Source: Pocillopora verrucosa (taxonomy: Eukaryota > Cnidaria > Anthozoa > Scleractinia > Pocilloporidae). From it: DNA of 64,000 nucleotides. Below are positions 1,021 to 61,216 of this stretch, piece after piece. The stretch is taken from contig NC_089318.1 of assembly GCF_036669915.1 (NCBI RefSeq), forward strand, positions 14,077,628 to 14,141,627, read 5' to 3'. How positions within the stretch are numbered: the stretch's first letter is position 1; the number at the start of each line of letters is the position of its first letter. Below the pieces are notes generated by a model. It was given only the letters and a program-made list of their open reading frames with translations. It was not told the origin of the DNA and did not search any database. Position numbers and translations under genes: made by a program.

Positions 1021-1026
1021 TTTATT
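1021..1026 (-). promoter_or_regulatory. Polyadenylation signal AATAAA of paralogue A
   Basis: The plus-strand bases are tttatt, so the minus strand reads AATAAA. It sits 60 bases past the stop codon at 1086, a normal distance for a 3' end. This supports the exon ending at 1086 as the last exon of paralogue A. Confidence 0.55.
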
Positions 1027-1085: not shown

Positions 1086-3214
1086 TTAGTCCAGAGCAAA
1101 CAGATTGACTAGAAACGCACAGAAAAGCAAAACTAAGAGTGTTTCCTGGACGTTTTCACACACCCTGAGTACAATAGTTGCATAATCCTCATGGTAACTT
1201 TTACAATTACATTTTTGAATTTTCAACTTGCACTCTTCACATTTGATAAACGTCAGCCTTCTCATATCAATATGCTTCTTGACAGTTTCTGTGGTGGGCC
1301 ATTCTCCCTTTACAATTTGGGTGAGTGTTTTCTTGACAGCGAATTCCAGTTTCAATGCCAGTTTCCCTATTACTGAGGCGTCGTTGTGTAGCGAGTGCAA
1401 TTCCCGTTCCAGTTGAGGAATGGCCTTGAATTTTCTTGCCACTTCTTTCGCCTGCTGCTCTTTCCTCTCAACGACTTGAGCATCCTGATCATGATTTAGA
1501 CAAGTATTTTTGAAAGTTTGAAGTTAATTAGTTGCTTCTGTATTTTTCTTTAATTAGGAAATAATAAATGACACCACGAAGCTAAAACGCCTTAAGTTTA
1601 AAAAATTTTGAATCAACGGCTCAGCTGTTTGGGCATTTCGTTTCGTTAACTTCACTAGAGCATACTACATAAGCATGTCACAAGTAAGCGGTTGCTTTCC
1701 TTTCATTTTAAGCCCTTTAAAAGCGTTTTTCAGCATAGACCACTCCAACCAATGGCCAGTCATCGAATAACAGTACAAATCTTTCTATATGATAAGCTTT
1801 GAAAAGGATGCGATCCAACTCAATTTACTGCAAAAGCAGTGAGTGATATTGGATGCAAAAGATATAAGATATAAATGGGTCCTGATTCACAAGAAGGGGA
1901 ATGTAAGGTCAAAATTTTCCGGCCAGCTTCTGTGATATCGAATGAACTCACCGTGAAATCTCTGAAACGAAACCTAGCGACGTTTATCCTTGTTAAGGTA
2001 AGGTATTCGCTCAGTCCGTGTAACCAAGGACATAGGGCTGCTTCAATTGGGCGGTAGTCTAAATAGTCTTCATCTGGAGGAACGATGCCGCAATGTAGGT
2101 GCCACTTCCAGAAGCAGGGATGTACTTTTACTGAAAATTTGAAACACAGACATGTTCATTATTAAAAATGGGAGTTGGCTTTACTCTGAAAAATACGTGA
2201 TGGCTGATTTAAAATCTCTTCACGTGTGGTCTCCACTTACCAGGCTGTGCAAATTTCTTGATCCAATGAAATCCCGGGCTTTCATTGGACAAGACAATTG
2301 TGGGCACCAATCTTTTTTCCAATAGCATTTTATAAAATGCGGCCCACAGCTCGTCAGTGACGTAGTCATGACCACTGGTATGCAACCCGTACACGTACAA
2401 ACCAGCTTCAAAGAGCTTAACTTCGACATTCTCGATTTCCTCTCTGCGGCCTTTCTCCTCTTTGAACACAGTCAAGATCCTGTTGTCCACGGACAAAGCG
2501 CAAATCACAGGTTTCTCAGAGTGGAAACCGTTGGGGGCGTAACAACCTACAAATTGGAACGGTAGAAAGTGACATAATCTCTCCAAGAAGTCCCACCATC
2601 TTTCAAGCTCCCTTCTTCGTGAAGTCTTTTAAGACTTGCAATTAAAATCCTCCTTGGCAAGTCGAAGTGTGCCAAGTTTCCCTTCTACCCAGAAGCACTA
2701 ACAAAATCCACTTACTTTGAGTTACCAAAAATTAAAAAATTATGTCCTCGTCGTGGCACAGATTCTGATTTTATTCTTAGAAGAAATGCTTCAAGCCAAT
2801 TTGACGATTGTATTGTTCGTGGGTCGATTTTCAACAACTACGTTTCGTTTGACTTACTCATCATTACCAGATTCAGTTCATCACAACCGATTGGCATTGC
2901 GAGAAATACGAGTCACGGGTTCACTTTTTCAATGTGTAAATCCAGCTAAATTAGCATGCAAAAATAAAGAGATTTTCTGCATTTAGAGGTTAGCTGTCGT
3001 TTGGCATGCTATTTTTAAGCTAGATTCGGACGTTGAAAATTTAGACAGGAGATCGTTTTGAGTCTTTTTTTTTTTGTCAAGTTCTCTGAGACAAACTTAT
3101 GAAGTTACCTAACATTTTCATTCGCTTACCTGGAATTAACTCCGAGCAAAGTTTGATGTTTTCTAAAAATCGGTTTTCCCACACAGCCACCAGTTTTGTC
3201 TTCCCTTTTTCCGT
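1086..3214 (-). CDS. Paralogue A, exons 2-5 (3' end of giant uncharacterised protein)
   Basis: Four short exons follow the giant exon, and each has a GT donor and an AG acceptor. Exon 2 is 3130-3214 (85 nt, contains VAVWENRF and ends IPG). Exon 3 is 2241-2546 (306 nt, contains CYAPNGF, FKEEKGRREEIENVEV and ELWAAFYKMLLEKRLVP). Exon 4 is 1952-2130 (179 nt, contains FWKWHLHCGIVP and EDYLDY). Exon 5 is 1086-1484 and ends in a stop (contains KKHIDMRRLTF). Phases run 0, 1, 1, 0 and keep one frame throughout. The same four exons occur in paralogue B with the same phases, and exon 4 is exactly 179 nt in both, which is strong evidence that these are real coding exons. I recognise no family. The whole protein would be about 2,200 residues. 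The terminal-exon call is inferred from the stop and the downstream AATAAA. Confidence 0.75.
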
Positions 3215-4127
3215 CTTGGAAAGGAAACAGAAATTATCAAAGTACTTTAAACAAAGAATGCCTTTCTTTTAAGCAGCATATATATGTATGGCTGAGAAAC
3301 GAAGCCGCACCTTAAGAGCGATTCAATTACATATTCAGAAAATGTTAATCAGCGCATTTAATGTTAATCAGCGAATCAAGAGCGCTAAAATAATTGTGGG
3401 AAGCTATTTGTTTACCTCGAGTTCATCTTGCGTTAACCTGGTGCTTTCTAACTTCTCTTTTATTTTTTAAGTTAATGACGGGCCATAAAGTCTAGTTTAA
3501 GAATATTTAGTGAGAATGTTCATAAGCATCATATTTGACATACTGAAAGGAACAGGGTGCCTACCGGCTTACTGCCCAGGATAACTTTCCTGAAGGCTAG
3601 CCAATGAAATGACTGCAAGCCAGGTATATAATAAAGCACACGAAACCCACCTTATTTTTACAAGGCTTGTCAGTCTCTTTCTGGAAAATAAAGACAAGGT
3701 TTGTTATAACGTCAGCTTTAACTCAGGCAATCGTAGCCACCCTTTTAAAATGTTTTTGAAACGAACTGATTCCATGGCAGAAAAGTTTAAAAATGCATCT
3801 CAAGGAAACTGAACTTTTTCCTACCCTATCTACAGATCGGAGCATCTTCAAATCATTTGTGCGTTGTGGTAGATTATTCGTTCCATCATAACACCACAAC
3901 TTATTCGAAGGGCTATTGACGTGTACTATAGGGAGGTTTACAGGCTATCAAATCATAGCACCTCGTCCAAGCTGTCATAATCGTTCCTCCGTAAATGTTA
4001 CAATTTGCAATTTTAACCATTGGTAAAGAAAGTATTGCATACGATACTGGAATACGTTCCAAATTCCTAGCTTCCAAGCTGCGCTCGCAGTGTCTTTGAC
4101 AAAGTTAGCGTGAGTTATTTTACTTAC

Positions 4128-7100
4128 TCTCTTGTGGAATTTAGTCACCCTGGCACGATGTCGCTGCTCTTCACGAATTAGTTGCGTCGCGCGTCTGGTA
4201 ACGCCCTCACACTCAATCCGCCCACCAATTTCTTTTATAGCTGCCGCAACCTGCTTCTCCATTTGATCCAGCGAAGCTTGAATTCCAAAGAGATCTCTCG
4301 TGGGAAAGTCACAGTCATCGATCTTTATAGAGTGAATATTCAGCATGAAAAGCAGGTCCTTCCATTGGCTCCAATGAAGCCTGAGGACATTCGTTAGTTT
4401 CGTTTCATATCGTTTCTCACTTGGAAACTCACTCTTGCTGAGGAAACAAGAGAGTTCGAGAGAGGGCGAAGCCCAAAGGTCCTTAGAGTCCACTAAGTCT
4501 CCTTGGTTGTAGCCTGCTGCTTGAAATTGAGAAAGAAGAAGCTGATTTCTTGGAAATGATAGAATCTGAAGTCGAATCTCGTCCTGTAGCTTCTTTATCT
4601 GGGAATGATTTTTCTCATACGAGAATGAGAAAAGTGATTTAACAATCTTCATAGTGTTTGAAGCGAGGGTTGGTTTGTTGGCGATACCCGACAACCAGCG
4701 TCGCATTAATACCAGCATTGACTCATAAACTTTATTTGGGAGATTATGTGGCGGCAAAGTTGAACCTTTCAAGAATGGACCTGTCGAACTTAATTCGCTC
4801 TCTTGTCCCCGAAGTGCCTCGCCACAGTTTGGAAAACTGGATTGATTATCAGCGATTGTGGGTTGTTTGGCAAACAACTCATTGAAAAGGGCCTCAAGTG
4901 TCTTGCGGAGGATACTGTAGGGATTTCTACTTTTGGTTTCATCTTTTGCAATTTTGGGTTCGTCGTTTGTGTCTTCTGTTTTATCTGCCGTCTTTTCTCC
5001 CTCGTTTTCTTCCATGTTCTCGGTTCTGGCTTCTACCTCTTTTTCTTCTTTCCTTTTTGAGTTGCTTACTGTCGTATTGGTTTGCTCTTTTTCTCTTTTG
5101 GTTACGTCTCCTCTCTTTTTGGATTTGTCCTCTGCCGTATTTGTTTTGTCTTCTTCCTGTTGTTGTTTGTCCTCTAACTGTTTGGTTCTGTTTTTTGTAT
5201 CGCTGACTTCATCTTCTTCCTTCTTGAATTTTTCCATATGACTCTTGCACAGCTTGTTACAAGCCTGGACCACAATTCTCTCAACAACAGCATCGGTGAC
5301 AGTTTTTTCAGACATTTGGAGCTTCAATATGTGAATTAATTCGCTGAGAAATCTAGCCAGTCGAAGGTGTTCCTTGATCAAAGGGTTTGGTGATTCTTCT
5401 TCCTGCAAATGCGTTTCTCGAAAGCCGTTTCCTGAAAATAAGCATCTTTTGATATTCTCAGAGGAATTTTTAACGAGCTGCAGGGACGAGGGATTGAGGT
5501 CAAGAACTGCATCAACATCACGCAGAGAAAAATTCTCCTTGGGCGTGAAGAGGAAAAACACACACCATTTGTCAATCACGTGGGCAGGGTGTCCGTCCGC
5601 CGTCATCAACCTACGCCAGTTTGAAAGCCGATCAAGGCCGTAATTTAAAACATCTAGGCTGTGTAAATCGGTTAGCCATTCGAGTTTGTCTAGCAAAACT
5701 TTAGAACTATCTCTGTAAACCCGGCCGCACGCTTCTAGCATTGACCAAACAAAGTCTTTGCACAAGGGGTTTATAAGCAATCCTTCCGTTTCGATGCGCC
5801 TCTTTACTTCCTCCAGCAACTTTTGTGCTTCATTTCTCTCCAAAGTCCACAGAGGAAAAATCGTTGCAATCGTAGTTGCAGCTTGAAGGTCTCTTCTGGC
5901 CAGTTGTAGAAGATCAAAGGTTATTTGAAACGGTAAGAACTTTTGAAGAATGCAAAGGAGTGACTCCAGCTGGGGTTTAAGACCACGAAAACAGGATGTT
6001 GTACGTGGGAAAAGGGGCATTCCGGGAAACTGACAGCTACTTCTCAGGATGTCTTGTAATATTGAAATAATGGCAACCTGAATATTAAGATGCCCCTCCT
6101 TGTCCAGGCTTTGGGCGTTCCATCCACATGATCCAAATATAACCTCAGAACATTGAAGGACGTGGTGCTGACTAAGGCCCTTGCGGATTTCATTGTCGAA
6201 CCAGAAAGGTACAACCTCAAAGTACGGTGCCTTTTCCAAGCAGTAGAGGAAAAACCCTGCCACATTATCACAAGCTGAAGAATCGTCTGAAGGTTTGCAG
6301 ACTTCATCTGGACAAGCTAAGCATTCGCTAGCAAACAAAGAATTCCAAAGCTTAACTGCAATATCACAGAGGTTTATATCATCACCTCGGAGACGTCTTA
6401 ACTGTTTCATCATTTTTTCTGCAATTTTACCTGGAGTCAAGAGAGACGCTGGTGTTAAAGCCTTAGATTTTTGTTCAAATGAACATTGGGTGGCACTACT
6501 GAACTTTGTACGGCTCCGGAAATCGTCTTTGTTTTTTGATTCGTCGTTCCGAGGAGGTAAAGGCAGTGAGTGACCATCCTGTATTTGCGAACCAGAACCT
6601 GCATACGGGCTGAAACAAGTCAGACGGTGAACACCTGGGTAACAGCAAGAGAGGTGGAAGCACAGGGCAACATCTTCGCCTGACAAAGAGGAATGGAGAG
6701 CAAGCCACTCTAGGTCGCAAGTAATAGTGCTGCCACGCTCAAAGGTACCTGGATTTTCCATAGCCTCTTTAACTATTCGTGTTTCCAGGTCTTTGACGCG
6801 TTCAATTAGTTCGTGTATTTGATCCGTGGCCTCAAGCGTTCCTTTTCCATTCCTACTACTTTCGTAGGTTTTCCAAAGGATATGAGGAATTTCATACCTT
6901 GCACACACGCTTGAGTCGCAAGCAGTTTCCCACCGGGAAGAAACCAGTGCAATAAAGGCCAATCTCTCTTTTGGGGCTACGTTGTTTTCAACAAGGTAAG
7001 AAAAGATAGAAACAGCAAGAGGCATCAGTTGTGAGTCAAATTTACAGAGTAGTTCTTCTGCTTCTTTTAGGAGACGAACTACCTCAATGGCTGAGCTGGA

Positions 7101-9797
7101 AACCTTGATAGTTGATTCCAATAGTAATAACATATGCTCCAGGAATGCTTGCTTTGCAACTCTAAAGGAGGCAATACAATCGTATATCTTGCCAACATCA
7201 TCTATGTTTGAACAAAGAACGGAACACATTGATTTTGACGGCGTCGAAGGAATACTTCCAAGGCGTTCCACCATTCCAGGACTTTCAATGATGGTTGCAA
7301 TGAGCTCAAAGTCCAAATGCTTCATTTTATCTGATTGGCAGATCTTGCAGCTAAGCGGAATCACATTCATGAGTGCACAGGGTAAGGTATTTCCAGTAAG
7401 AAGCCATGGTTTTCTTTGCACCAGGATTAAAAGTTTTCGGATCAACCTAAGCTTCGCCTCTGTTGTTAAGACATCAGACTGCACAATGATTTTCAGAGCA
7501 TCAACCAAGTTTCCGACAGGGGCTTGAGGTAATGGTTCTCTATTACCTCTCTTGGGCGAATTTCTCAACAAAAAAATGACTTTAGAAAACACCAGCCTTA
7601 ACTCAAAATACAGTAACAATGCTTCGAAGGGGGAGTTAAATCCCTTTGCCCTTGCAAAAACCGGCAAGCAACAATGCGAGTCAACCTTCTCATTAAAGAT
7701 GCCGACTGCTAATAGTCCAGCTACGACGACATTCCAAATGGTCATCACATCGACTGACACACCATCATCAAATTGTAGGTCAGTCATTTTCCGATGGTGA
7801 ATGCTAAAGACCTCACTGAGGGGTTTCGAACCGTTCAAAGTTTCAAAAATTGCTGAGAAAAGAATGTCAAAATACTCTTGAGCTCTTTCTTTGACAATTG
7901 TTGTAGCTGAGGTTACTACTCTTAAAACATATCCGCAGCATGATAGGTCATCCTTTGAATTCCTTGAATGCCTCAATATTCGAACTATATTATCAGTCTT
8001 CATGCTCGTAAGCGGAGATTTGGCCAGATCCATAATGAGCTGAAATGTTTTAGATCTAGTTTGTTTTTTCAGAAGCTTGTGTTTGAAACTCAATTGATTC
8101 AGTGTCTCTAACAGTTCGGAGAAGACTTGCTGATTACTGTCAAGGCTCTGACTGGACGTAGATACTTTAGATACAAAAGCTACAATGATGTCTTTTTCGT
8201 TCTCGTCGAGATGAGTGGAAAAGTTTACAACTTCCTTAAAGAAAGTTTCCTTGTATTCTAAGGACAAACCTTTGCATAAGCACAAAGATTTGATGATTTC
8301 ACAGGAAAATTGATCGCATCTTTCTGTACGATTGAAGCAACGCACGAAAAGGGCAACCATGTTTCCTTTCGCATCCTCGCTAAAGTCAACTTCTTGTGAA
8401 ATCCATTTTAAAAAAGAATAGGCTAATCGCTTGAATTCATCCAATACTCTAGGTACTCCAGGCAAAGGATGGATTAAAAGCAGCTTGAAAATATTCACAA
8501 TATACCCCAAGAGCCGTTCAGCTTTTTCTTGTAAGCGGTTTACTCTTTCAGTTGATCGTTTATCAAAGAGTCCTATGAAGAGGTTTAGCAATTTTTTAAG
8601 CTCCGCTTTTTCCAGATCATTCGGAAATACGTCAATCCAAAATCTGAGAATTCTTGTGACTAGACTACCGTCGGGAATTTCATGCAGCAGTTGTTTGATT
8701 GATTGGAAGCATTGTACTCTGTGGGTTGGATATTGTCTAGGCTCTTTACATTCTCTGAGAAAAAAAATGTTACACACCTCTGCTAAGTCGGCATCGTTAA
8801 CCTTTTTCCACGAGAAGATTTTCAATGAGGTAGCTGTCATCTCGTAGCCGTCTCTGAAAATATCGTACATGTGTTTAAAGAAAACATCACGTCGTTCTTC
8901 CTCACAGCCAAGATCAACTTGCTCTCCTTTTTTTTCAAGTTCCTGTAAGACAACTACCATATGGAAAAGAGGAGATATGGTGCCCGGTAATGGTTTATAA
9001 AGTGGATCTTCCCTGGCTAAACGAAGAATGAATGCAACATCCCCTTCCGTCGTTAATTGAAGGAGATCACCCCAGTTTTTGAAGGAAATCGCAGGGATCA
9101 AGTCATCAAAAGGTGCCTGTAAGTTAGGAAAAAACGTCTTCACAAGTTCCGAGTTAGGTTTGTGTTTGGAATCTGCCCGGGCAAACCTAGATGCTTGAGA
9201 GATTATATCCACAATATCTTCCGCGCAATAGTCCCTTGCCTCTAAAATTGCAATTAGGTCTTCGAAGAGATCCGCGGTACTTTTAATGCTGCAGTAATTT
9301 TTCTTCTGAGAATCCAAAGCGGGAAAAGTAAGTTTTCCTTCTTGGAGAATCTGCATAAGCTCGAGTAGCATCAAAACAATTTTTGTCGAAAAGTAGTGCT
9401 TCTTTGAATCAGAGGGAAAGCAGAATTTAACAGTCCTGATAAACACCTCAAATGATACTCTATTGGACCTGATGGGGGAACAATTACAAAATTGAGAGCA
9501 AATTTCAAAAAGTGTCACTAACTCTGTAGTAGATTGCTGAGGCTCTTTAAGTGAATCTTGAAGACGAGAGGCCGCCCATGTATTGAAAACTTGAATGATG
9601 TGATATCCTTGAAGACATTGTAGGTTTTCAAAAAATAAATCCTTTTGTTTTGCGGCTTTGAAGGTTAGGGAATGTAATCTTCCAAGGGCTGCTTCCAGGT
9701 CATTGACAGCTTCTTTAGAGAGATTCGGGCTATTTTTGCAAATATTCTCTTTTTGTTCCTTGATTTTCTCATGCACCAAGTCGCTTTTGGTCGCCAT
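4128..9797 (-). CDS. Paralogue A, giant first coding exon of an uncharacterised helical protein (about 1,890 codons)
   Basis: One uninterrupted reading frame starts at ATGGCGACC (9797) and runs to a canonical donor, GTAAGT, just below 4128. The open frame continues into the intron and stops at 3975, but that tail is not shared with paralogue B, so I end the exon at the donor. The protein is rich in Leu, Lys and Glu and reads as a long alpha-solenoid-like scaffold. No signal peptide, membrane helix or catalytic motif is evident. Residues about 1520-1620 are a Lys/Glu/Asp/Thr-rich, probably disordered or coiled-coil linker that paralogue B lacks. Blocks conserved with B include LQGYHIIQVFN near residue 65, FCFPSD near 130, a TCDLEWL block near 1025, and a C-terminal block around LMRRWLSGI. 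Function is unknown. I considered an RNF213-like giant ligase, but no AAA, RING or carbohydrate-binding motif is visible, so I do not assign it. An upstream non-coding or short first exon is possible. Confidence 0.85.
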
Positions 9798-12575: not shown

Positions 12576-13254
12576 ATAGATAAATAAATAAATCGAAATA
12601 GCCGAAGCGAAAAAGAGGGGACACCACAAAGAATCAACCTGTTAAGTATAAAAAACAACCAATGCCAAGCGGGTATCTTAGATATACATCCATGCACGAA
12701 GGGCTTTGGTTTAAACTTAGTTGTTTGAAGTTAACATAAATGGAATAGATTGATAAGAGTCAATTTTACAATTTAACAATTTTTAATTTAATTAGAGTGG
12801 CTTCGGGATGTTTATTCTTAAACGTCTCCGAACAAGAAATTTTCTGTTCCAAGGCGTTCAGGTACTAATAAAAGAGCGCAATAGTGACGGAACAACGCAG
12901 CGGAGCGAAAAAACAAGAAAAGTTTGCGTCGGCGTGTAACGCCGGAACGGCGTTTTTATGCATCTTAACCCACCACTATCACTCCGTCCAGTGACCCCGC
13001 TTCGTTTTAGCGACTGAACGCCTGTTAGTTTGAAACACTCACATATGGCTTGGCGCTTATTCATTCACTCTTAACAAAAGAAAAGTACCAAGGCCAGATA
13101 TAGGCATTTGTTCTCAAAGTCATCGCCCTTGAAAATCGAAAGAGAATCCTAATGCACTACTCAGGCGTCTGCTACTGATGTCATCTCATTCTCTCCGGAC
13201 ACAAACTTGAAGAATCCATCTTCAAAACGGATAATATATAAGAGGACAAGACAA

Positions 13255-13850
13255 TATTTGTAAGGCTTTGCATCTTAGTTGAAATGCAAAAGCTGCCTCT
13301 TGATCGGAGACTGAAGGATAGAGAACGAGCCACTCCAGCTCGTAACATGTTATCCGTCCTGTCATGTGATCCGCCTGGGTTTTAAAAAGGGAATATTAGT
13401 AAAGGTTTCTCTTCACAAATTGAAAACTCTTTTAAGCAGTTGACCGTTTGGAAACATTGATCAGACTCACGAAATATGAACTTACGCGTGTCAAATGTAG
13501 CAAAAGGACAAACAAATTTCGGCAGACCTGTTCACCACTTCCAGAAAGGTGCCCAAAGGTTCTTCTTCTAAGGTTTCAAAAGGAACAGCTATACTACATT
13601 GAGAATTTGAATGGTGTGGTTTCCCTGTAATCTCTGAGCATGTTCAAGGAAGCTTGTTGGAATTTTTCATTGAAACGAATTATCACTGATGCTGGCACAG
13701 TTTTTAACTCTTTGATATGTTGCTCCAACAGGGTCGAAACCTGCTTTAAAATCTCCCTAATCTTCTCTCACACATTTTGAGACAGTTCTGGTGAGCTAAA
13801 GTCATTGTCTTTACTCATCTTCCAAGCAGATGGAAACTGATTTTTTCGAG
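13255..13850 (-). pseudogene. Relic C: decayed fragment of a third giant-protein paralogue
   Basis: Minus-strand translation gives two collinear blocks matching paralogues A and B. At about 13255-13365 it reads TGRITCYELEWLVLYPSVSD, against ITCDLEWLALHSSLSGED in A and ASCELEWLVFYSAISEED in B. Upstream at about 13690-13850 it reads SAWKMSKDNDFSS, an in-frame TGA stop, then EKIREILKQVSTLLEQHI, against LLWKIYNFSND and LMKRLREILRKI in B. The spacing between blocks is similar in B and C. The internal stop and the lack of a continuous frame make this a pseudogene. It lies between A and B in the same orientation, as expected for a tandem array. Confidence 0.75.
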
Positions 13851-16177: not shown

Positions 16178-18115
16178 TTATTGTCCTGCACTCGAGGTAA
16201 ATATCAATCGCGCATGCTCACACGCACGAAGTACCGCAGCTGCGTAATGTTGTCGACCCTCATCACTCGTATCCACCTCTGGGCGTCGAAAAGCAAGTTT
16301 ATTCATATCGATATGTTGATCTACCATCTGTATCGTAGGATGTACCCCATCAACTATGCACTTCACCGTCTTTCTGACTAACACCGCTAATCTTCCCGCC
16401 AAAGTTCTTTTGGTTGGCTCGTCCTCTCCATGCAAAATCTGCAGCTCGTGTTTGAGTTGCTTAATAGCTTCTCCAACCATTTGCTTCGACTTCTTTTCTT
16501 GGTTCTCGACGATTTTGGGGTCCTCGAGATAAAAATGAAGATTTCTGATGTGACGTTTGAAGCATTGCCAGACATTTTAATGAATTAATTAACGGTAAGA
16601 ACTAGAGGGCGCCAGGTAGAGAACCTCAATAACTTAGCCCTTTACATATTACATAGGTGTGGGAGAGTTATGCATAGGCTCAGCGTTTTAAAAGGGGCAT
16701 CATACTGTGAACACTAAGTGCTTTTGTAATGATGTTTTAATTGGCAACACTTCAATTCAGCTCATAGCAAGGTGCGGGCGGGGGGAGGGAAACTGGGAGG
16801 CAACCACAAACATTTTAAAATACAAGTATTTTGCACCGTTGTAGGAGCAAAACAGTGCCACTATGATAATTATCAAACATGCATTATATGTTCCTCTGAC
16901 ATTTTTTAATACCTTCAAATCTTTGAACTGAAAACTGCTAACGTTCTCGGTCGTTAGAGTGACAAATTCTGTCAATCCACTCTCGCGGTTCCACAACGCT
17001 GCATAGAGTGGGAAGTGGTCGAAATAATCTTCCTTTTCAGGAACAATCCCCTCATGAAGGTCCCACTTCCTGGGATAAGGAAGACTTTTGGCTGTATGCA
17101 ATAAATAAGAAAAGTACTACAATTGCAACACTTCTCATATCTGGATTTGGTCGAAGCCCACCGACTAGACACCTCAGTAACCGAAAAGCAGAGCTGAAGA
17201 ATTCTCAAATGGACCCTTACATTTCTACATTCTGGAAGCACTTGATGCGCATGGTTTATTTTTCTACTTCAAGATCAGGGAAAGGGATGAATAACCAAGT
17301 AAGGGAAAATTAGCTATCTCGGCTAACAGCTGTTTTTCTTTTCATTCCAAATCAGATTGACTGTATGATTCATAACTGATGCGTTATAGAAATTGCATAC
17401 TTACCAGGTTGTGCAAAATTCTTTATCCAATTAAATCCTGGGCTTTCGTTGGACAAGACAATTCTGGGCACCAATCGTTTTTCTAATAGCATCTTATAAA
17501 ACGCGGCCCATAGTTCGTATGGTATGCAACCCGAACACGTACAAATCAGGTTCAAAGAGTTTCACCTCAACATTTTCGATTTCCTCTCTGCGCCCTTTCT
17601 TCTCTTTGAATACGGTCAAGATCCTGTTATCCACGGACAGAGCGCATATCACAGGTTTCTCGGCGTGGAAACCGTTGGGAGCATAACATCCTTTGCGATT
17701 GAGTGTCAAATTAGTATTGTTAAAAAAGTGTTGAAAAATAATAAACTCCTTCCGTTCAGCGGTATATTACGTGGGGAGTAAGCCCCATTAAACACTGTCT
17801 CCTAATGGCTTAGCATTCCTACAATTAATTCTTAAGAACAAGTACTTTTAAAGCAAATCACACAAATTCTATTGATGTGGAGTATGGTAAATCACTCGGC
17901 TGTTCAATCGGAGATAATGATGCTTGATGTCGGAGGCTAACATTTTTCGATTGAAATATATTTGCAAAAGCTAAGTAACAGTGAATTCATCAATAGCCGA
18001 CTGAAGGAGTCAGGTAAAGAAGCTTCGACTTGCCTGGAATTCTCTCCGAGCACAGGGTGACCTGTTCGAAAAACTGGTTCTCCCAAACAGCGACAAATTT
18101 CTTCATTTCAGAATC
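16178..18115 (-). pseudogene. Paralogue B, exons 2-5, with a 20-base deletion in exon 3
   Basis: Four exons mirror paralogue A. Exon 2 is 18034-18115 (82 nt, contains VAVWENQFF) and is followed by a GC donor, gcaagt, instead of GT. Exon 3 is 17405-17690 (286 nt, contains CYAPNGFHAEKPVICALSV). Exon 4 is 16913-17091 (179 nt, contains PRKWDLHEGIVPEKEDYFDH). Exon 5 is 16178-16522 and ends in a stop (contains QHIDMNKLAF). Exon 3 is 20 bases shorter than the 306-nt exon of A: between GLHT and ELWAAFYK the segment coding SGHDYVTD is lost, and the frame changes. Splice sites and phases are otherwise preserved, so decay is recent. Either this is a pseudogene, or the protein ends early. Confidence 0.75.
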
Positions 18116-18625
18116 CTGAAAAGAATCATCATAGTGTGATTTTTACTTAGATTAGTACTCCTTATTCCAATGTACATTAGCATGAGAGGTGATTTTCTCT
18201 CATACTTCTCCCATTAAATGTTATGCCCAAATTTCTACTCTAATAAAAGACATGGAAAGTTCCATTGCGTTGTAACAACGATTAACTTTAAAGCAGCATA
18301 ATTTCCTCGGGAGAAAGAGACAACATACTTAATTCTAAATCGTCAGTTTTACAGTACCAAAATATAACATGATCTGTCAAACTTGTTTTTGTGACCAGTT
18401 GAAATGACATGATTCATAATTGCTGCGCTATAATTATATAGCACTTAATTTTACAGGGCTAGAAATTTAATTCTTCGTAGGGACAATTTGTTGCTTTAAA
18501 AGTTGTAATTAGTGTCCCAGACTTAAGACGGATCCCTGTGAAAAGTCTTACCTGCTCAAATACGATTAGATCACCATAAAATCATCACAAAGAAAATTTT
18601 GGTTATGATCTATATCCTTACTTAC

Positions 18626-21600
18626 CCTCTTGCTCTTGCATAGTTTTTCATTGGCCACTCGATGCTGTTTTTCTCCACGTATCAGCTGCTCGATACGTCT
18701 GTCCAGTTCTCCCGCTGAGTGGAAGGAATCTTGGGAAAAAAGTTCCGAGCTTAGCTGTCTGGCGCACTCCTTTACGGCAGTAACCTGTTCCTCCATCTCC
18801 TCCAAGGTTGCCTGAGCTCCAAAGAGGTCGTGTCTCTGTACTTTGACATCACCAACTTGAACAAATTCAACATGGTAGATGGAAAGGAGATCCTTCCATT
18901 CATTCCAGTGTGATCTAAGGACATCAGATATTGTGTCATTCGGCGACTTTCGCTCACTTAGGTAGCAAGGAAGTTCAATTTTGGGTGAAGACCACAGATC
19001 TGGACTGTCTGGTTCCCTTTCATTGTATCCTACTGCTTGAAATTGCGCGATGAGAGATTGATTTCTTTCGACCACGAGGTTTGGTTTGGTAACGATCCCA
19101 GTAAGCCAACGCCTCAGCAACACAAGCAATGATTCATGCACTTCCTTGTATCTCAGAGCAGCTGGAAAATACTCCTGCATGGAACATGCTTGACTCGCAA
19201 CAGACATTGCATCTCTTCTTGGTTCGTCGGTTTCTTTCTTTAGTGATGTTTCCTTACCGAAGATCTTTGTCAATAGAGACTTCAGTGTCTGGTTATGAAT
19301 TTTGTAGAGATGTTTGATCCCTTCCTCTTTTTCATAGCTAACGCAAAACCTTTGGCAAGCATCGACAACTAACTCTCTGGCATTAGCATCTTTGAGATTT
19401 TTTTCAGGTTGTAGAGGTTTCAGGATATTGACGAATTCGCTTAGCAATCTAGCTAATCGTATGCGTTCGTTAGTTTCACCCGTCTTGATGCCCTCCATCA
19501 GTCACTTGAAAACCATCGTCAGGAAAGTTGACTCGTTTGATCATCTCAGGAAGAGGTGTGTTAACCTGCAGCGACGTGGAGTCTACATTAGCAAGCTGCA
19601 AAGAGCGAGAACTTAGTGAAAAAATAGCTTCAATGTCGTGTGATTTCAGATCCTTCGGTGGTGTCAGAAGAAATGCTTGACACCAAGAGTCAATTGCCCG
19701 AGCAGAAAATCCGTCTGTTATCATCGCCTGCCTCCACTTAGGCAAAATGATAAGGCCATACAGATCATCTTCCAGCTGGTCGTATAACTCACGGAGTTTC
19801 TTTAGCCTTCTTAAAAGATCTCCACTCGAATTCTTGCAACGATGAGCGATGGATTCAAGTAACTGTTATATAAATTCACTTTGCAAACGGTTCAAGGAAG
19901 ACATCGCGCCTTTTTCGCCCAAAAGACGAATTTCCCTCACCAGCTCCAGTGACTGTTCAATTGAAGACCACACAGAGACAATATGGCCAACAGTGTCACC
20001 AGCCTGGATGTTGATTTTGTATAGCTCTAGAACGCTTGATATTGCTTTAATGTGCAACTGCCTCTCCAGAAATCTATGTAGCTGCTCTGAGCTCGGCTTG
20101 AGAAGTCTGAAGTAAAGAAAGCGAGACATTTGCATCTTAGACAACGTTTCACTGACTAACTTGTGAAAATTTAAGGCAGTCTCTTTGTCGAGGTCGTTCC
20201 GATGCACCTTACAAGCCTCTACAATAACCTTTGAGTAGCAATGCGGGAAGAATTGGTCACGCTGTTTTGCCCAGTTAAAAATAATTTCTATGAACGGCGC
20301 CTCGGCTAGAATCGATAAAAAAGAATGCACAAAATCGTCTACAGAGAGTTTGCATCCTTCTGCACACCCAAATTGTTTCTCTGATTCAAAGATGAGTTTC
20401 CAAAACGCCCAGGAATTCTCATGAAGTTGATTCCTATGTACGACTAGGCGTTTGAAGTGATAAATGGCTTGCACGGCAATTAAGACTGGGGTTAAAATGG
20501 CCTCTCCCACCTTCTTGTCGGTGGAGATTGATTCCACTTTGACCACGGGCGTTGCACAGAGACCCTTGCTACGTACCCCAGAAGGTGTTTCATCTTCATA
20601 AGGGTTAAACTTGAAGAGCCCATCTTCAATTCGTACGTCAGAAAAATTCAAACATCTCGCTTGTTGACCAGAGCTAACTTGGAAGAAGCGATTACTCAGA
20701 TCTAGTGCAAGACCTGCATCTTCTTCTGAAATGGCGGAATAAAAGACAAGCCACTCAAGTTCACAACTTGCAATTCTTCTTGTCATAGGTATAATATGGT
20801 GACATCCAAAATGCCACTCAGAGTGAAATCGATCAGCGCTGATTTTCCTCAGGATTTCTCTCAGACGCTTCATCAACTCCCCTGTCCTCGATGAATCATT
20901 TGAAAAATTGTAAATTTTCCAAAGTAGTCTTGGGACGTCAAAATACGACAATATCTGGTAGCTAGGAGGAATTTTCCACCTCGCGGAAACTTCAGACAGA
21001 AATTCTTGTTTTTCTTGTTGCTCGACAGGATTTCCCAGGAGAAACGAAACGTTGAGCATCGTGAAAGGAATCAGCTCTGGTCGAACATTACGAATAACAT
21101 GCACCAGCTCTTCCAAAACATCTAGAACGCTCTTCAGTGATGACACCTTTTCAATGGCCACCTTGATAAAGGGTCCTAAATGGTCGAAGAAAGTCTTGCA
21201 TTGAGGAAATGAGGACAAGAATCTTTAGCCCGTCAGTTATGGAAGACACTGAGGAAAACTTTCCAGAAAAAGCAGACGAAAGGTCTCTTCTTACGGCTGT
21301 TGGCATTCTTGCGAGCTTGTTCAGCAGGGCGGAATCATGTAAGATATCGATGACCTGATTAAGCAAGTGGATTTCCTCATAGCTTGAAACACTGCCTTTC
21401 GCCAAAGACACTTGAAAAAAGGGAAGCAAGTGGTGCATGGCACTTGTCAATGTTGCCATAGTTGGTGGACTACTAAGAGTAATATTGCACAAATTCTTGA
21501 TCAATACCAACTTAGTCATAGTTGAGAACATATTAAAATGCAGAATATCTCCAGCAGCTCGAACTAACATCTCCAAAAGATCGGAATTCTTAGTAGAGCA

Positions 21601-24003
21601 CCCCTTAAAAGACTCTTGAGAGTTAAGGGACGAACAAGCTTCCGTTTGACTTCTGGATAGACAAGCTAGTCTGAGAGCTGTTGATCTCGTAAGAGAGAAA
21701 AGTTGCAAAATCTCATATGGAGAACCAAACCCCCATGCCATACTAAGAACAGGGCGGCAAATTTTCACATCGATGTCTTCCCTAAATAATCCCAGCGATA
21801 TCAGTCCGCTGGCAGTAAAGGTCCACACTTTTAACACATTAGTTGAAGGAAACTGAGTAGTGGAATGCTGACTGGAAAGTAGCTGTTCACATAACAGATG
21901 ATCGCCTTTGAGAGTATCCAGAACTGCATGCCAAAGAAGATCAAAGTATTCGTTTGTTTCCTCTTGCAGGACGCACGCTTGTGTTTGGATTAGTAGCAGA
22001 ATGTAGAGAACAATCTTATAATTAGTTTCAGATTCATTCGAAAGGCACTTGATGATTCTAAGTTTTCTTTCACCTGAGAGCGGCAGTCTAGGTAGGGATA
22101 ATAACGCCTCCAATGCATCTTCAGGAATGGTCGCAGGTCCCTCTTCAGCAGAAAAAGTCCTGACAACTGAGAGAACTTCACTCAAGATTTCTCCTTTACA
22201 CATATGATTTTGACTTGATCTTGTTTTAGTAGAAAATTCATTCCAAAGTGTTTTCAATTGCCTCCTAAGGGATGGGTTTGAGTCACACAGAAGATGCTTT
22301 TTAATGTTGAACGGCAGCTGCTCACACACGCTTAAGAATTCAATAAGATCCAGATCTGATGAAGGAGCCCATGAGTTGCCAGTTGTTTCATTGAGAATGC
22401 AATAAGTGAGCAGCCGAATCATCTCGCTCTTAGCTTCTTCTTTGCAATTCTGATGGTACACCCCTCGTAAAAATTGTAAAGTTGGTACCAGTCCATAGGG
22501 AGGGCGTTCAAGCCAGTGCCGTTCAACTGGTAGTCCTGCGGCTGCAGCTGAAGTCTTCTCAATCAAGACCAATACCTCTTGACGCAAGTGAAAGGAGGTT
22601 GGAAAGATCTTAGTTAGCCACCAAAGCACATTTCTCCAGACCATCATCGAAGGCAACAAAGTGCGAGGAAGTTGTTCTAGGAAATTCAGTACACTTTCAG
22701 CTGTTTCCGTATTGCTGCTTGATCCTTCATCCAAAAGGGCCAACAAGCAAGCAAGATTTCCGTAGCCTTGGTCATCAGAAAAAGCTTTTATCCAAAAATT
22801 CATGACTTTGTTGAGTAGCTCACCGTTTGGACATAGCAACAGACCTTTTAACAGGAGCGCGAGCGCTGCTTCCAAGAATCGTGACTCAGTTCTTTCTTTG
22901 TGAAAGAATCCATCGAGAACTTCTCTCAAGACATCATTGGAAATAGTAATCGCTGCTAGCAACTGAAGGGATAAGGCAGCTACGTTAGGGTGGATGCAGA
23001 AGTGATCTACATGGTTTAAAAGTATGTCCATCCTTGTCTTGTCGTTGGGCATCCTAAGGTTATCGGCCTTCCTTTTCATTTCTTCTAAAACCCCCAAAAA
23101 ATAGAAAATGGTACTTTGACAAGGTAAAGTGGATGCTGAATATTGGAAACCTACACCGAGAGGCTCGATTTTCTCTGCGGAAAGATCAACCGCCGCTAAA
23201 GCACATGCAAAAGCATTGCTGACATTCGCTGATTCCAGAAGTTTCATCCAGTTGGTTACCAAGAATGATGAAACCGTCTGTCCTTCTCGCAGTGCACCGA
23301 CATAATCGTTTGATTTCATCACATCTTTGTCGTCTACCGAGGCTAACCTTACTGTTATATCGATGACCTCGACTAGATAGTCTTTGCGTCTACTGTCAAG
23401 AACCTGGAGCAGTCTGCTGAAGAAATCTTTGGTATAATTGTGTTTGCCGAGTAATATAAAGTTATCATCATAATAAGAGTCAGCCGAAGCCTTTAACTTC
23501 CCATCTTGAAAAATTTGTACAAGTTTCAGTAAGTTAGAAAGAACTCCCAAGGACAGGCATTTCAGGTTGGTGTCAGAAGGAAAACAGAATTGTAAAGCGC
23601 TCGTGTAATAGTAAAAGGCAACTCGCTTCGACACATCATAGGTGTAACAAAAAAGGATACAAATATCAACAAGTTTCTTGAAATTTTGCTCAAAATGTAT
23701 GGAAGATTCCACCACAGAGTTTCGACATGGAGCAACAGCTAAGTTGAAAATCTGAATGATGTGGTTGCCTTGCAATTTCTGTACTTGTTCAAGGAAGATT
23801 CCTCGCTGTAGTTCATCTTTGAAGGGAAGTGCTACTAAGGTTGCAACGATAGTTTCTAACTCTTCTGAGAGTTGACCAGAGAGGCTGTTATTCTGCTTCA
23901 AAATCTGTTGAATGTGACCCTGAACACTTGTAGGCGGACATAGTGTCTTGAATTCTTTCTTTTTGTCCATTGTTACCAAAGAATTATTTCTTTTCCCATT
24001 CAA
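18626..24003 (-). pseudogene. Paralogue B, giant first exon broken by frame changes
   Basis: Homologous to the giant exon of A along its length, ending at a donor (GTAAGT, just below 18626) in the same place. The frame is open for 950 codons from 24003. It then shifts near 21210 (KILV then SSFPQCKTFFDHL), again near 19862 (LNRLQSEFI then QLLESIAHRCKN), and again near 19495 (DDGFQV then GETNERIRLARLLSEF). Alignment with A shows no room for introns at these points. The better start may be the second Met at 23970 (MDKKKEF), which matches the length of A's N-terminus. B lacks the charged linker of A. Parallel start and end sites show it was once a full gene. Sequencing error at all three sites is possible but less likely, because A is intact over the same length. 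Confidence 0.8.
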
Positions 24004-24725
24004 ACACCCAAAGATTGCTTTCTTAGTTTGTCAATGGGCCGTGCATTACCTCTAAATTAGATTGAAAACTTTAGTATATATGATATACGTACTCGACTTA
24101 GTTGAAATCCTAAATCAAGCACATTTTGGCTGAGACAAAGGAGATGTACACGTCTATTTTTCCTGATATCTTACACAGAGTAACCAACCGGACGTGCTAG
24201 TTTGTATAGCAGTAATATTCATTCCAAGAAACGGGTAACTCTTACCCCCTTTTGCATGAAAAGGTATCTGAGATCCAAACTCGTGTGATTATTTCTAAAG
24301 TTTAATACCTGATAAGACTGGTTTTCCCATGTCGTCAAAATAGAACGATCTGCGATTTCACTGTTCCCGACGTTCCCTGATTTTGCCAATATATCGATGG
24401 ATCGACAGACGTCTGTCCCATTGAGATAATTGCGCACACCATTTTCAATTGTGACTCAGGGGTACTGTAGCTAAGCAACTGGAGGACTGGTAGGGAGGCA
24501 ACACTATTACCGACTTCCTCGACCGTGAGAATCGAAGCTTTCATACACCGTGAACAAGGTTAATGATCGCCATCATCGTAAAAATCTGGGAAGGCATTAG
24601 GAAAATAGAAACGTTTCCGATTTTCTTGATTTGTCGCCGAGACAGTGGGAGGATCTCTACAATCTCAAGTGCTCATTTGTCGGAAAAATCTGGGATGTTC
24701 GGGAAACAGTGAAATCGCCGATCGT

Positions 24726-25862: not shown

Positions 25863-25891
25863 TGACAGTTAGGTAAGTAAAGTTCACTTAC

Positions 25892-30420: not shown

Positions 30421-30458
30421 TCTAGTATATCACAATCATCGAGAGTATTCATCATGTC

Positions 30459-32602: not shown

Positions 32603-33538
32603 AAATGATAAAAAATGACAATAACATCGAGAATACATTTACAATAGGTGTTAGAATCAGGAGGTACTACAAATATTAACTTATGAGATTCAAATTCAAT
32701 GATGCATCTGCAGGGGAAGATTTTCTCGTATCTTTAAGGACTTGAGTATCCCTCTTCTTTCAAACTCGGGTTTTACAAGCACTAGTTATATTTCTGCGAC
32801 TTAAACCATGATTTTTGTGCATAATCATGATCAGGGAATTATGTAAAATATGGCAAACACAAGCTTGAAAGGTTAACAAGAATATAGAGCAATCTAAGGA
32901 ATAATCCCGTTTGGCTTTCGAAAGGAAATAAATATTTTTTTTCCAATGTCCTATTCATCAATCGAATACACCTTCTACAAACCCATAACTTGTACTTTTT
33001 TGTGCGCAAAATCTAAAACTATCGTAAGCATTATGTTTATTTTCCACTTGGGGTAATGGACCAAATCGTTTGAATTGTTATGCATTAGCATCAAAATTGA
33101 AAATTTCGTTGACCTTTCTATTATTAAGATCTCAGTAACCAAGGTAAGGTCCCTAATTCAGTCATCAACAAGCAATTAGCATTTGCTATAGCTTGGATTT
33201 AGATTCCATAATTTTCACAATTTTTATTTGAATAAGACCTGATTTCTAAGATTTCTGATCTAAATACTGCTGATGCCGATTAGAAAGCTAGTTTTCCAGA
33301 GAGCCTGGAAGACTTCCAGCCTACTAGGATGCGTGACGGAAGAGAGAGAGAGCTGCGAAAGAGGTCATTAACACTTTATTTTCTCGTCCTGTTTCCAAAG
33401 TAACAAAATAATAAAGATCATGTGGTCTACACGTCTTAACAAGTCAAAAGCAGAAACCAATCTAGAGTAAGTAACTGTAAATCGAAAGTTTAAGAATATT
33501 ATCGCTGTCCTGTAGAACCCAGAAGTATCGGTGGAAAA

Positions 33539-35788
33539 ATGTCTCTACATGTCATGTGCCTCTCTCTACTATACGTTTACCCCTTCATACATTTCTTAAC
33601 TGCCGAGCGGGATGTTGACTGCAGACTTTCACCCACTGATGGGGATATTTCCATGGAATTTCGCCTCCAAGCATCCGGAAAACGTGTGAAAATGGTTTAT
33701 TTGAATTTGAAGATTGGAAACGGAAGCTACCATCCATTGGAGTTAGCGGACGAATTTCTTCCAGAAAGATGGGTTTGGGCAAAGTCAATCAAGGAACATA
33801 TGCTTTCTCTGCCCGAAAATTATGATGTTTTATCACTGGGATTGTTAAAGTATCAGGTGACAAGTCTGGACGTGCATTTGGCGGATAAACCAACAGGATG
33901 TGTAGCGAGTTTGAACTCATCCAGCCAAAACATGGCTATTGGAAAAATGCTGTTAGAATATGTAACCGTTGAGACAAAAAACTCTAGTGATTTACAGTCA
34001 CAAGTAGTCTGTGTGAGAATGATAAAGGTCATAAAGGGTGCAGGAGATAAACATCTTGAGTATCAGTGCTGTAGAATATCGCCTAACAATCTTGAATCTC
34101 ATCAGGTCCTGTGTGATCAAACTGTTAGCATAAGCCACTGGGCAGAGCTGCTCGAAACCATTCTTACTCTCATTGCTATTTTCTTGGTCCTTTTTTTTCC
34201 GGCGTTTCCATTGGCACTGCCAGATTATATATTTAGCCTTCAGCGAGAGTGTGACAAGGCCGAATATCGCCCTACGGAAGACACAGGTCCACACGCTGAT
34301 CGTTTGCATCACACGAGAAATGGATACGTTGAAATCAATCAGGATGATGAGGAGGACGATGGAATTGCCGTGGATGATGCCACTCCATTGACTATTTCAA
34401 CTCTTTTATTTCAAGTTGTTCAACGACTGCCCGACTCGAGGTTCTCGTTCAACCTTAAGTTAGCTTTTATGCTCGTCTTTCTTTGTCCACTTTCTATCTA
34501 CGTTCAGTTGGGGCTCACTTTAGCGATAAACAAAAGACACATGGATGAAACCTTAAGGAAAGAAATAGACCGTGGTTTATCTAATACCGTCTTTTTAATT
34601 GCCTATTCAATCTGTGTCTCTTTTCCTTGCTTTTTTTTAAGACCGAAAGATTTATTACTATCAAATCAGATTACAAGGAGTTGTTTATGCGGTAGATTAT
34701 CTAAGCTGCTTCGGTTTCCTTTACTAGATATCGAACGAAGCTCCGTGGGAGATGAAATACGTGTTCATTTGAACTTACTGAAATATGGAGTCTACAATTT
34801 GGTGCCGATTTTTACAAATTGGTGTCTACGTAGGTTAAACACGCTGTTTAGTACCATCACGTGTTCGACAACAATGAGTAATCATAAAATTTCCCGAATG
34901 AGGAGTGCACTTTGTGCTGCCTGGGTCATATTTTCTTTTTTTCTTACACTACTTTTGGCCATTTTTGGTGAAGTATTCTTCATCTTCCTCTGTCTTGTTA
35001 TGCAGGTTTGCTTTCTAGGTATTTTCTCACCTTTCTATACCCTTTTTCTCATTTTTTTTTTAAAGACATATAGAGTGACCAGAGCTTTTTGCGAATACCG
35101 TGTTTTGATTAGGGTAACTGGAGTTTTTATAATTGTGCTATTGTTAATGTGCTCTTATGTAATTTTACTTTTTACCATAACTTTTTTGACCTCTTCTTGT
35201 GGATTTTTTACCAATACTGTAGCGTATACTACCATAGGAATCGCCCTAAACGCAGATAATGTAACGCCATATGCAGCTTTCGTCCTTGTAATTATTACAA
35301 ACATTTATCTCTGTTACTCTAATTTTCAGAACAGGTACAAAGAGGTCAAGGGGATGATATTAACATGTCGATGGGAATTACATAAGAATACCGGAAGTTT
35401 TTATTCCAACGACACAATTCCGACCAGGCTTTGTTGGTTTGTGTGCGGCAGAGTTTTGCCAGTTAAATCTGAAATTTGTCGCATGCTTCGCAATATGGTT
35501 TTGATTTTGATATTTTTGTTTTTAGTGGTATATTCAATTGCTTTTTACGGAAGTGAAAATAACGTTTCCGCTACTTTCTCCGTCATCGCCGTAGTTCTCA
35601 CTGGGGTTCTTCCAGCCTTACTGTTAAAACTTTTGACTGAAGGCAAACCATTCAAAGGCTTGGAAAAAGTAAACTTGAAAAGAAAAATTCACTTTGCAGT
35701 GGAACAGTTTTATCAAGAGTCAAGTGATGAAAATACAATTATTAGTGACAGAGTGAATAAACAAAGTACAGATGTCGAACAAGTGTAA
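33539..35788 (+). CDS. Uncharacterised multi-pass membrane protein, 749 aa, intact copy
   Basis: A single open frame. Residues 1-22 form a likely signal peptide. An extracellular domain of about 180 residues follows, with several Cys and N-glycosylation sequons (NGSY near 60, NSSS and NSSD near 125-145). About ten hydrophobic helices follow: near 204-227 (ending FPAFPLAL), 305-330, 349-368, a long double or triple segment at 458-512, 525-548, 562-595, 650-668 and 675-700. An acidic loop (DDEEDDGIAVDD) lies between the first two helices. The tail ends VEQV. The family is unknown to me; the layout suggests a receptor-like or transporter-like plasma-membrane protein, but no signature motif is seen. 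A tgtcctgtag acceptor-like site lies just before the start, so a 5' non-coding exon is possible. It is duplicated at 61217-63456, where the frame is broken. Confidence 0.85.
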   Translation: MSLHVMCLSLLYVYPFIHFLTAERDVDCRLSPTDGDISMEFRLQASGKRVKMVYLNLKIGNGSYHPLELADEFLPERWVWAKSIKEHMLSLPENYDVLSLGLLKYQVTSLDVHLADKPTGCVASLNSSSQNMAIGKMLLEYVTVETKNSSDLQSQVVCVRMIKVIKGAGDKHLEYQCCRISPNNLESHQVLCDQTVSISHWAELLETILTLIAIFLVLFFPAFPLALPDYIFSLQRECDKAEYRPTEDTGPHADRLHHTRNGYVEINQDDEEDDGIAVDDATPLTISTLLFQVVQRLPDSRFSFNLKLAFMLVFLCPLSIYVQLGLTLAINKRHMDETLRKEIDRGLSNTVFLIAYSICVSFPCFFLRPKDLLLSNQITRSCLCGRLSKLLRFPLLDIERSSVGDEIRVHLNLLKYGVYNLVPIFTNWCLRRLNTLFSTITCSTTMSNHKISRMRSALCAAWVIFSFFLTLLLAIFGEVFFIFLCLVMQVCFLGIFSPFYTLFLIFFLKTYRVTRAFCEYRVLIRVTGVFIIVLLLMCSYVILLFTITFLTSSCGFFTNTVAYTTIGIALNADNVTPYAAFVLVIITNIYLCYSNFQNRYKEVKGMILTCRWELHKNTGSFYSNDTIPTRLCWFVCGRVLPVKSEICRMLRNMVLILIFLFLVVYSIAFYGSENNVSATFSVIAVVLTGVLPALLLKLLTEGKPFKGLEKVNLKRKIHFAVEQFYQESSDENTIISDRVNKQSTDVEQV

Positions 35789-41884: not shown

Positions 41885-42670
41885 TTATACCGGTTTTGCC
41901 GCAACCAACACACAATAGTGATCACCTTCACCAGGAAACAACTTAAATGGTGAAGAATTTTCTCCACTTGTGTACCGAGTGCAGAAACTTGCCAGCCTGT
42001 CTTTTCTTATTAGCTTGCGATCAAACAAGCCATGTGAATCTGCCCAGAAAAACGAAATCATTTCTTCTTCGTTATCAAATACAAAGGCATCACTTTTCAC
42101 GTCGTAACTCTTCACAATATCAAAGCCGACAGCTGCACACATCTCCTCTATCTTTGCTTTCTCTATGAAGTGCCACTTGCTTAATATAGTGTTACAGTTT
42201 TCTGGGACAAGTTCTTTAAAAAAGCGCTCAAACATGCTAACCAATGAATCTTCGTACGACAACAGAATTTTCCCGCCTGGTTTAAGGCTCTGAAACGAGT
42301 TCTTGAAGGCCTCATGTTTGTCCTGAATCCAGTGAAGCACAAAGTTGGAAAAGACAACGTCGTAACACTGTGATCCCATTCCTGGGAAGTTTGAGGCACT
42401 TCCTTCTTGAATGGCAAGATTACTGATTCCTCCGTGTGTTTTTTGGGCCAATTGAACTCGAGCAGTGTCAGGGTCCACGGCTACAACCTTTCCATCTCTT
42501 CCCACGAGCTCCGCCAAATGGGCAGACAGTTCTCCAGTGCCACATCCTAAATCCAAGATCACATTTCCAAGACGTGGTTGAACATTTTCAATTAACTTTC
42601 TGCCCCAAGATCTTTGCATCGTGGCTGAAGCTTGCTGGTAACCCTTAGCTGCTTGCGCACTGTTTATCAT
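41885..42670 (-). CDS. Class I SAM-dependent methyltransferase, 261 aa, intronless
   Basis: It transfers a methyl group from S-adenosylmethionine to an unknown substrate, probably in the cytosol, since no signal peptide or membrane helix is present. Motif I is VILDLGCGTGEL (residues 37-48). The acidic residue after beta 2 is D66 in KVVAVDPD. The motif II/III region is YDVVFSNFVLHW (103-114), and LKPGGKILLS (129-138) is the usual strand 5 motif. This is the Methyltransf_11/25 fold. Small-molecule enzymes such as juvenile-hormone-acid or malonyl-ACP type O-methyltransferases share this layout, but the substrate cannot be read from sequence. The start ATG at 42670 gives a full-length domain. The lack of introns among intron-bearing neighbours is compatible with a retrocopy or an intronless family. 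A MITE lies 116 bases upstream, inside the likely promoter. Confidence 0.85.
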   Translation of the reverse strand: MINSAQAAKGYQQASATMQRSWGRKLIENVQPRLGNVILDLGCGTGELSAHLAELVGRDGKVVAVDPDTARVQLAQKTHGGISNLAIQEGSASNFPGMGSQCYDVVFSNFVLHWIQDKHEAFKNSFQSLKPGGKILLSYEDSLVSMFERFFKELVPENCNTILSKWHFIEKAKIEEMCAAVGFDIVKSYDVKSDAFVFDNEEEMISFFWADSHGLFDRKLIRKDRLASFCTRYTSGENSSPFKLFPGEGDHYCVLVAAKPV

Positions 42671-42785
42671 GATTGATGACAGACGGAGACGGTACGGAGA
42701 ATGATTTCACGATCAGGTTGAACTGTACTCTGATGGTAACTACAAGGGGTTTCAAGAGGCCTTTATAATCATAATGCTGAGTCAC

Positions 42786-58706: not shown

Positions 58707-58782
58707 CCCCAGCTTCCGCGGTTTACGCGAAGAATGCCTGGGACCATGACCCCTCTTTTAGCGCCTAAGAAAGGCCTGCATT

Positions 58783-58910: not shown

Positions 58911-59698
58911 CTGTACTGTGATGTCTTTAAACGATACAATAGAGACGATTTTTTCGTTATTTACGATTTCTGAGGACTTTGCATACTAAGGATCTCAAAC
59001 AAGCCGGACGGAACGCCATATCAATAAGGTTCTGGGTGTCCTTGTAATTCGAAGGCGTAGAGTTGAAAAGAAATATTCTTCTCAATTTGGTTTCTTCAGC
59101 TTTGATGCATGCGTGTACGATTGTATTTAAAAATGATAAAAAATGACAATAACATCGAGAATACATTTACAATAGGAGTTAGAATCAGGAGGTACTACAA
59201 ATATTAACTTATGGGATTTAAATTCAATGATGCATCTGCAGGGGAAGATTTTCTCGTATCTCTAAGGACTTGAGTATCCCTCTTCTTTCAAACTCGGGTT
59301 TTACAAGCACTAGTTCTATTTTTGCGACTTAAACCATGATTTTTGTGTATAATCATGATCAGGGAATTATGTAAAATATGGCAAACATAAGCTTGAAAGG
59401 TTAACAAGAATATAGAGCAATCTAAGGAATAATCCCGTTTGGCTTTCGGAAGGAAATAAATATTTTTTTTCAATGTCCTATTCATCAATCGAATACACCT
59501 TCTACAAACACATAACTTGTACTTTTTTGTGCGCAAAATCTAAAACTATCGTAAGCATTATGTTTATTTTCCACTTGGGATAATGGACCAAATCGTTTGA
59601 ATTGTTATGCATTAGCATCAAAATTGAAAATTCTTTGACCTTTCTATTATTAAGATCTCAGTAACCAAGGTAAGGTCCCTAATTCAGTCTTCAACAAG

Positions 59699-59705
59699 CA
59701 ATTAG
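59699..59705 (+). repeat. Left target-site duplication CAATTAG of the LINE
   Basis: Seven bases directly before the LINE fragment, repeated at 60852-60858. Copy 1 has a single caattag in the empty site (near 33173). Confidence 0.85.
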
Positions 59706-60858: not shown

Positions 60859-61216
60859 CATTTGCTATAGTTTGGATTTAGATTCCATAATTTTTACAAT
60901 TTTCATTTGAATAAGACCTGATTTCTAAGATTTCTGATCTAAATACTGCTGATGCCGATTAGAAAGCTAGTTTTCCAGAGAGCCTGGAAGACTTCCAGCC
61001 TACTAGGATGCGTGACGGAAGAGAGAGAGAGCTGCGAAAGAGGTCATTAACACTTTATTTTCTCGTCCTGTTTCCAAAGTAACAAAATAATAAAGATCAT
61101 GTGGTCTACACGTCTTAACAAGTCAAAAGCAGAAACCAATCTAGAGTAAGTAACTGTAAATCGAAAGTTTAAGAATATTATCGCTGTCCTGTAGAACCCA
61201 GAAGTATCGGTGAAAA

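Follow-up and report, generated by a model that had tools for sequence, protein, structure and literature searches.

A tandem cluster on one chromosome of the coral Pocillopora verrucosa contains three intact paralogous genes, A, D and E, which encode giant proteins of about 2,130-2,210 aa with no match to any described family in the libraries used here. Our preferred, still tentative reading, held at slightly less than even confidence, is that these proteins are giant alpha-solenoid scaffolds, in which a fast-evolving body is joined to a near-invariant C-terminal module with a docking or catalytic role. The body of about 1,830-1,890 aa is predicted, from its first 880 aa, to be all-helical and would probably form a HEAT/ARM-like alpha-solenoid, a superhelix of tandem two- or three-helix repeats. 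Such a body would offer a long partner-binding surface, which has quickly diverged between the paralogues and may recognise differing partners or ligands. The nearly fixed module would perform one constant job. The safer guess for it is docking to a conserved partner, and catalysis is possible. The proteins are probably cytosolic.

The analysed window is a stretch of 64,000 nucleotides (C7:14077628-14141627) of a genome of 353 Mb in 52 contigs; for five Pocillopora assemblies, sizes of 234 to 408 Mbp are given in the literature (PMC9646523). Gene A occupies positions 9797-1086 on the minus strand, exactly where the first-pass annotation had placed it. It lies in a stop-to-stop frame of 1,946 codons (3975-9815, minus strand), while the longest frame was at most 202 codons when the window was resampled 40 times with a first-order Markov model. 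The giant exon has no internal stop, all introns of gene A are GT-AG, and the five exons join in frame to a protein of 2,212 aa (Table 1), which bears out the view of an intact giant gene encoded mainly by one exon. A possible 30-nt mini-exon (3680-3651), which would keep the frame, was set aside; no counterpart was seen in D and E, whose modelled exon 2 directly follows exon 1. Residues ~1525-1625 of A (about 4925-5225) form a highly charged, low-complexity insertion missing from D and E. Among the three proteins, only A is closed by the hydrophobic tail ETLLVLLFCAFLVNLFALD (1086-1145), which could serve as a tail anchor.

Table 1. Features of gene A, its relatives and neighbouring frames, in positions of the window.
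Feature	Position	Strand	Description
Gene A exon 1	4128..9797	-	ATG at 9797, 1,890 codons without stop, donor GTAAGT after 4128
Gene A exon 2	3130..3214	-	TEKGKTKLVAVWENRFLENIKLCSELIPG; phase 0 to 1
Gene A exon 3	2241..2546	-	near-invariant module of ~100 aa, CYAPNGF...ESPGFHWI
Gene A exon 4	1952..2130	-	KWHLHCGIVPPDEDY...; phase 1 to 0
Gene A exon 5	1086..1484	-	carries the stop codon; hydrophobic tail at its end
Gene A poly(A) signal	1021..1026	-	AATAAA; stop codon 59 nt away
Relic of a further copy	13176..13818	-	several frames, heavily deleted
Paralogue B	16178..23970	-	pseudogene with one in-frame TAA and three or more frame changes
Paralogue C	49463..51559	-	recent, truncated duplicate of B's N-terminal part
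Membrane-protein-like frame	33494..35788	+	member of the ~760-820 aa family
Membrane-protein-like frame	61214..63456	+	member of the ~760-820 aa family; frame-broken
Open frame between giant copies	41885..42706	-	resembles a SAM-dependent methyltransferase by its motif
Reverse-transcriptase-like frame	59654..60652	+	presumably of a retrotransposon

Paralogues D and E are located on the same chromosome, downstream of the window and on the plus strand. Their exon 1 is open over 1,857 and 1,853 codons, and after reading of the splice sites both genes give intact joined proteins (2,139 and 2,126 aa) from five exons each, with the intron phases of A. The proposed layout of one giant exon and four small ones, with all four intron phases, thus recurs in two further intact genes. 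Intact five-exon frames are found in 3 of the 6 copies seen (A, D and E), and the other three (B, C and the relic) are disrupted. The small exons had originally been described as kept in a second paralogue. This stands for the exons themselves, which B supports; since B is a pseudogene, it does not represent a second working protein, a role filled by D and E outside the window. Intron 2 starts with GC instead of GT in B (18033) and in D (L009:6614), and with GT in A and E.

Whole-genome protein searches gave 12 matches for the long frame of A, 11 for exon 1 of D and 5 for the exon-3 region of A. All of them fall into one cluster of ~90 kb on the same chromosome, in searches that score the best candidates only, so that distant relatives could be missed. 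Part of this cluster was recently copied. Segment 21858-31164 is 96.6% identical to 49463-58783, which places paralogue C in a 9.4-kb block copied from that of B, and segment 33173-36304 is 95.1% identical to 60852-63973. Taken over its full extent (21858-36304 and 49463-63973, 95-97%), the duplication includes part of pseudogene B and a membrane-protein gene. The latter belongs to a family of single-frame proteins of ~760-820 aa, by eye apparently multi-pass membrane proteins, which are arrayed next to the giant genes and in between them (C7:14111121-14255610). The copy in the window has no Pfam match, and 31 matching pieces were found genome-wide, 27 on C7 and 4 on C6. Elsewhere in the assembly, contig C30 carries three cox1 copies at spacings of 17,407 and 17,411 bases, with cox1 reading through in genetic code 4; from these spacings, the contig is a probable mitochondrial genome assembled as tandem 17.4-kb units.

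For identification of known domains, the giant exons of A, D and E were run against Pfam and PADLOC, and exon 1 of A and the exon-1 profile served as queries against PDB sequences. For exons 2-5 the libraries were Pfam, PADLOC and PDB, together with NCBIfam and PHROGs, which were applied to these exons only. In Pfam nothing exceeded the cut-off for any of the three proteins (best E 0.017). HEAT, ARM or TPR profiles of Pfam-A matched none of the three exon-1 proteins, and no GTPase, AAA+ or RING/RZ domain was found by Pfam. Outside Pfam nothing was convincing either. The PDB chains listed for exon 1 of A, bacterial ADP-ribosyltransferases, had E values of at least 0.49, and the exon-1 profile and the joined exons 2-5 reached PDB E values of at least 2.6 and 0.034; all were set aside as chance, as were weak NCBIfam (E 0.015) and PHROG (E 0.0089) hits of exons 2-5, each confined to one member. 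PADLOC gave only weak matches for exon 1 (E 0.57), also regarded as chance, and none for exons 2-5. A literature search for the peptide CYAPNGF retrieved no paper. The earlier statement that no known domain is visible therefore agrees with these searches, in which a clear profile match was looked for and did not appear. The word "system", used there for the same genes, goes further than the data, as no evidence of partners was found.

The structure of the body was predicted by AlphaFold2 for residues 1-880 of A. The model contains 44 helices and no strands, at a mean pLDDT of 48 from a four-row alignment. For exon 3, three aligned rows of window pieces gave a model (pLDDT 52) with four strands and two helices. 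Both low-confidence models are in line with the helical scaffold and compact C-terminal module that had been proposed. The small alpha/beta module encoded by exons 2-5 would lie mainly in exon 3. The body model supports helices but points to no particular fold, so "solenoid" is a guess at its class. Internal duplication of exon 1 was considered and found not convincing, with scores slightly above shuffles and no clear repeats. Among 105 pairs of window profiles the three best share a 480-column offset, and the scores were 12.1 on average and 18.9 at best, against 10.9 and 16.5 for shuffled pairs. Only one of the three non-overlapping pairs (0-600 vs 600-1200) exceeded 15 shuffles (21.2 vs 18.4, probability 0.4%).

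The alternative that survives best is a highly diverged housekeeping solenoid of the karyopherin, CAND1 or cohesin-regulator type, present as tandem duplicates, whose module binds a conserved partner with no recognition involved. Foldseek returned mostly helical-repeat proteins among the best 50 of 618 matches to the 880-aa model, with importins, CRM1 and CAND1 among many families, and purifying selection acts across the whole gene, both as expected for such a protein. However, the matches are scattered over unrelated families, the top two are designed proteins, TM-scores in the best 50 do not exceed 0.22 for a model of low confidence, and exon 1 of A, D and E has no Pfam or PDB profile match. 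We consider this origin unlikely, at roughly one chance in five.

The case for a divided protein draws on the comparison of exons 1 and 3. Identity in exon 1 is 30% between A and D, 33% between A and E and 43% between D and E; the corresponding values in exon 3 are 84%, 93% and 83%. Bootstrap medians of dN/dS for the three pairs are 0.27-0.33 in exon 1 and 0.016-0.08 in exon 3. The pN of exon 3 (0.03-0.085) is below that of even the lowest exon-1 window (0.23-0.285; windows of 102 codons, 1,613-1,623 windows). The first-pass annotation had listed several conserved C-terminal motifs; a compact conserved module is indeed present, but conservation is concentrated in a single exon (CYAPNGF...ESPGF) and is not spread evenly across those motifs. 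The rapid evolution of exon 1 may reflect relaxed constraint.

Gene conversion was rejected as the cause of the similarity in exon 3. Both exons approach saturation at synonymous sites, with pS for A-D, A-E and D-E of 0.56, 0.67 and 0.58 in exon 3 and of 0.73, 0.71 and 0.67 in exon 1. When the 100-base flanks of exon 3 were compared among A, B, D and E, 8 of the 12 comparisons stayed at or below the top score of 20 shuffles. The four exceptions were three upstream flanks (A-D, A-E and B-D) and one downstream flank (A-E), with A-E upstream as the strongest (0.62 vs 0.53). The DNA match between A and B stops within 6 bases of the exon 3 ends. Because synonymous sites are near saturation and the flanks mostly dissimilar, purifying selection is a better account of exon 3 than conversion. 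The somewhat lower pS of exon 3 in all three pairs leaves room for some old exchange or codon constraint.

A module so strongly conserved might be an enzyme, for example a PD-(D/E)XK or RNase H-like nuclease regulated by the helical body. Exon 3 is near-invariant including its charged residues, and the possible active-site residues D20, E41-V-K43, H55, H59-D60 and E88 are identical in A, D and E. PD-(D/E)XK nucleases carry the motif D...(D/E)xK on an alpha-beta-beta-beta-alpha-beta core fold, and the order D...ExK, together with modelled strands followed by a helix, fits this pattern. The motif has little weight, however, because most residues of exon 3 are invariant. No enzyme profile matched exon 3 or exons 2-5, and the best Foldseek match of the exon 3 model has an E value of 0.41 at its pLDDT of 52. 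A nuclease or similar enzyme appears improbable.

The rate contrast and the tandem cluster with its pseudogenes, and nothing further, would suggest a role in recognising non-self or symbionts. In the most far-reaching form of this idea, exon 3 founds an undescribed domain and A, D and E an undescribed coral receptor-like family, in which a diversifying solenoid senses microbial or symbiont ligands and passes the signal to an invariant effector. We regard this form as improbable to the same degree as the enzyme.

An origin of the giant frame from a mobile element or virus is very improbable: the very long single exon and, by eye, reverse-transcriptase-like and other element-like frames nearby would agree with it, but introns and phases are conserved, purifying selection acts, there are no dispersed copies (all best-scoring candidates lie within the ~90 kb), and the hits of two exon-3 peptide patterns (20 in IMG/VR contigs, 39 in GTDB contigs) led to no confirmed relative. 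The least probable alternative, which we hardly credit, makes the protein an ARMC5-like adaptor of CUL3, with a solenoid for its body and a divergent BTB/POZ domain in exons 2-3. It originated from a four-row exon-3 profile that matched the BTB domain of SPOP over positions 1-80 (E 0.003, nine SPOP sequences listed). With the joined exon 2-5 profile SPOP was absent up to E 10, and Pfam gave no BTB match in the family. BTB matches in the coral's own genome, among the 150 listed, lie only on contigs C1-C14, and against 30 BTB frames of this genome the exon 2-4 profile gave noise (best E 0.81). In hhalign comparisons with 29/30 own-genome BTB domains, probabilities were 2.0% for exons 2-4 and 3.1% for exon 3, exceeded by 3 and 2 of 60 column shuffles, and the alignments covered 13-14 columns only. 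In addition, the exon 3 model has strands at positions where the BTB structure has a helix. BTB/POZ identity was rejected on these controls, which largely refute the adaptor.

For the preferred scaffold reading, the practical interest lies in exon 3. If the split between body and module holds in other corals, exon 3 would mark out a compact piece that can be expressed by itself and whose function is constant and under strong selection, within a protein otherwise refractory to homology searches. It would thereby give entry into one of many coral families of genes with no assigned function. If the proteins are ordinary solenoid adaptors, the family is one further lineage-restricted one.

Among known systems, the HEAT/ARM-type alpha-solenoids such as importin-beta, CRM1, CAND1 and UTP10 are closest in architecture, sharing the predicted all-helical body over 880 aa and many Foldseek matches. 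A, D and E differ from them by the lack of any sequence or profile match and by the low TM-scores given above, and these proteins are not known to carry a comparable conserved alpha/beta module at the C-terminus. In ARMC5 a small C-terminal module follows a body of helical repeats. This arrangement and the weak SPOP profile match are reminiscent of ARMC5 and SPOP-type BTB adaptors of CUL3, but the BTB homology of the giant family failed its controls. GVIN/VLIG and RNF213 are likewise giant animal proteins, and GVIN genes also consist of one giant exon and occur in tandem clusters, whereas Pfam scans of the coral proteins found none of the GTPase, AAA+ or RING domains. NLR proteins show the division of labour of the receptor-like reading, with unrelated parts. 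Stony corals also have lineage-restricted "dark" gene families, for which an origin from known genes that duplicated and rapidly diverged has been proposed (PMC13044578). These families resemble the giant family in having no assignable function, and the giant family differs from them by one near-invariant internal exon.
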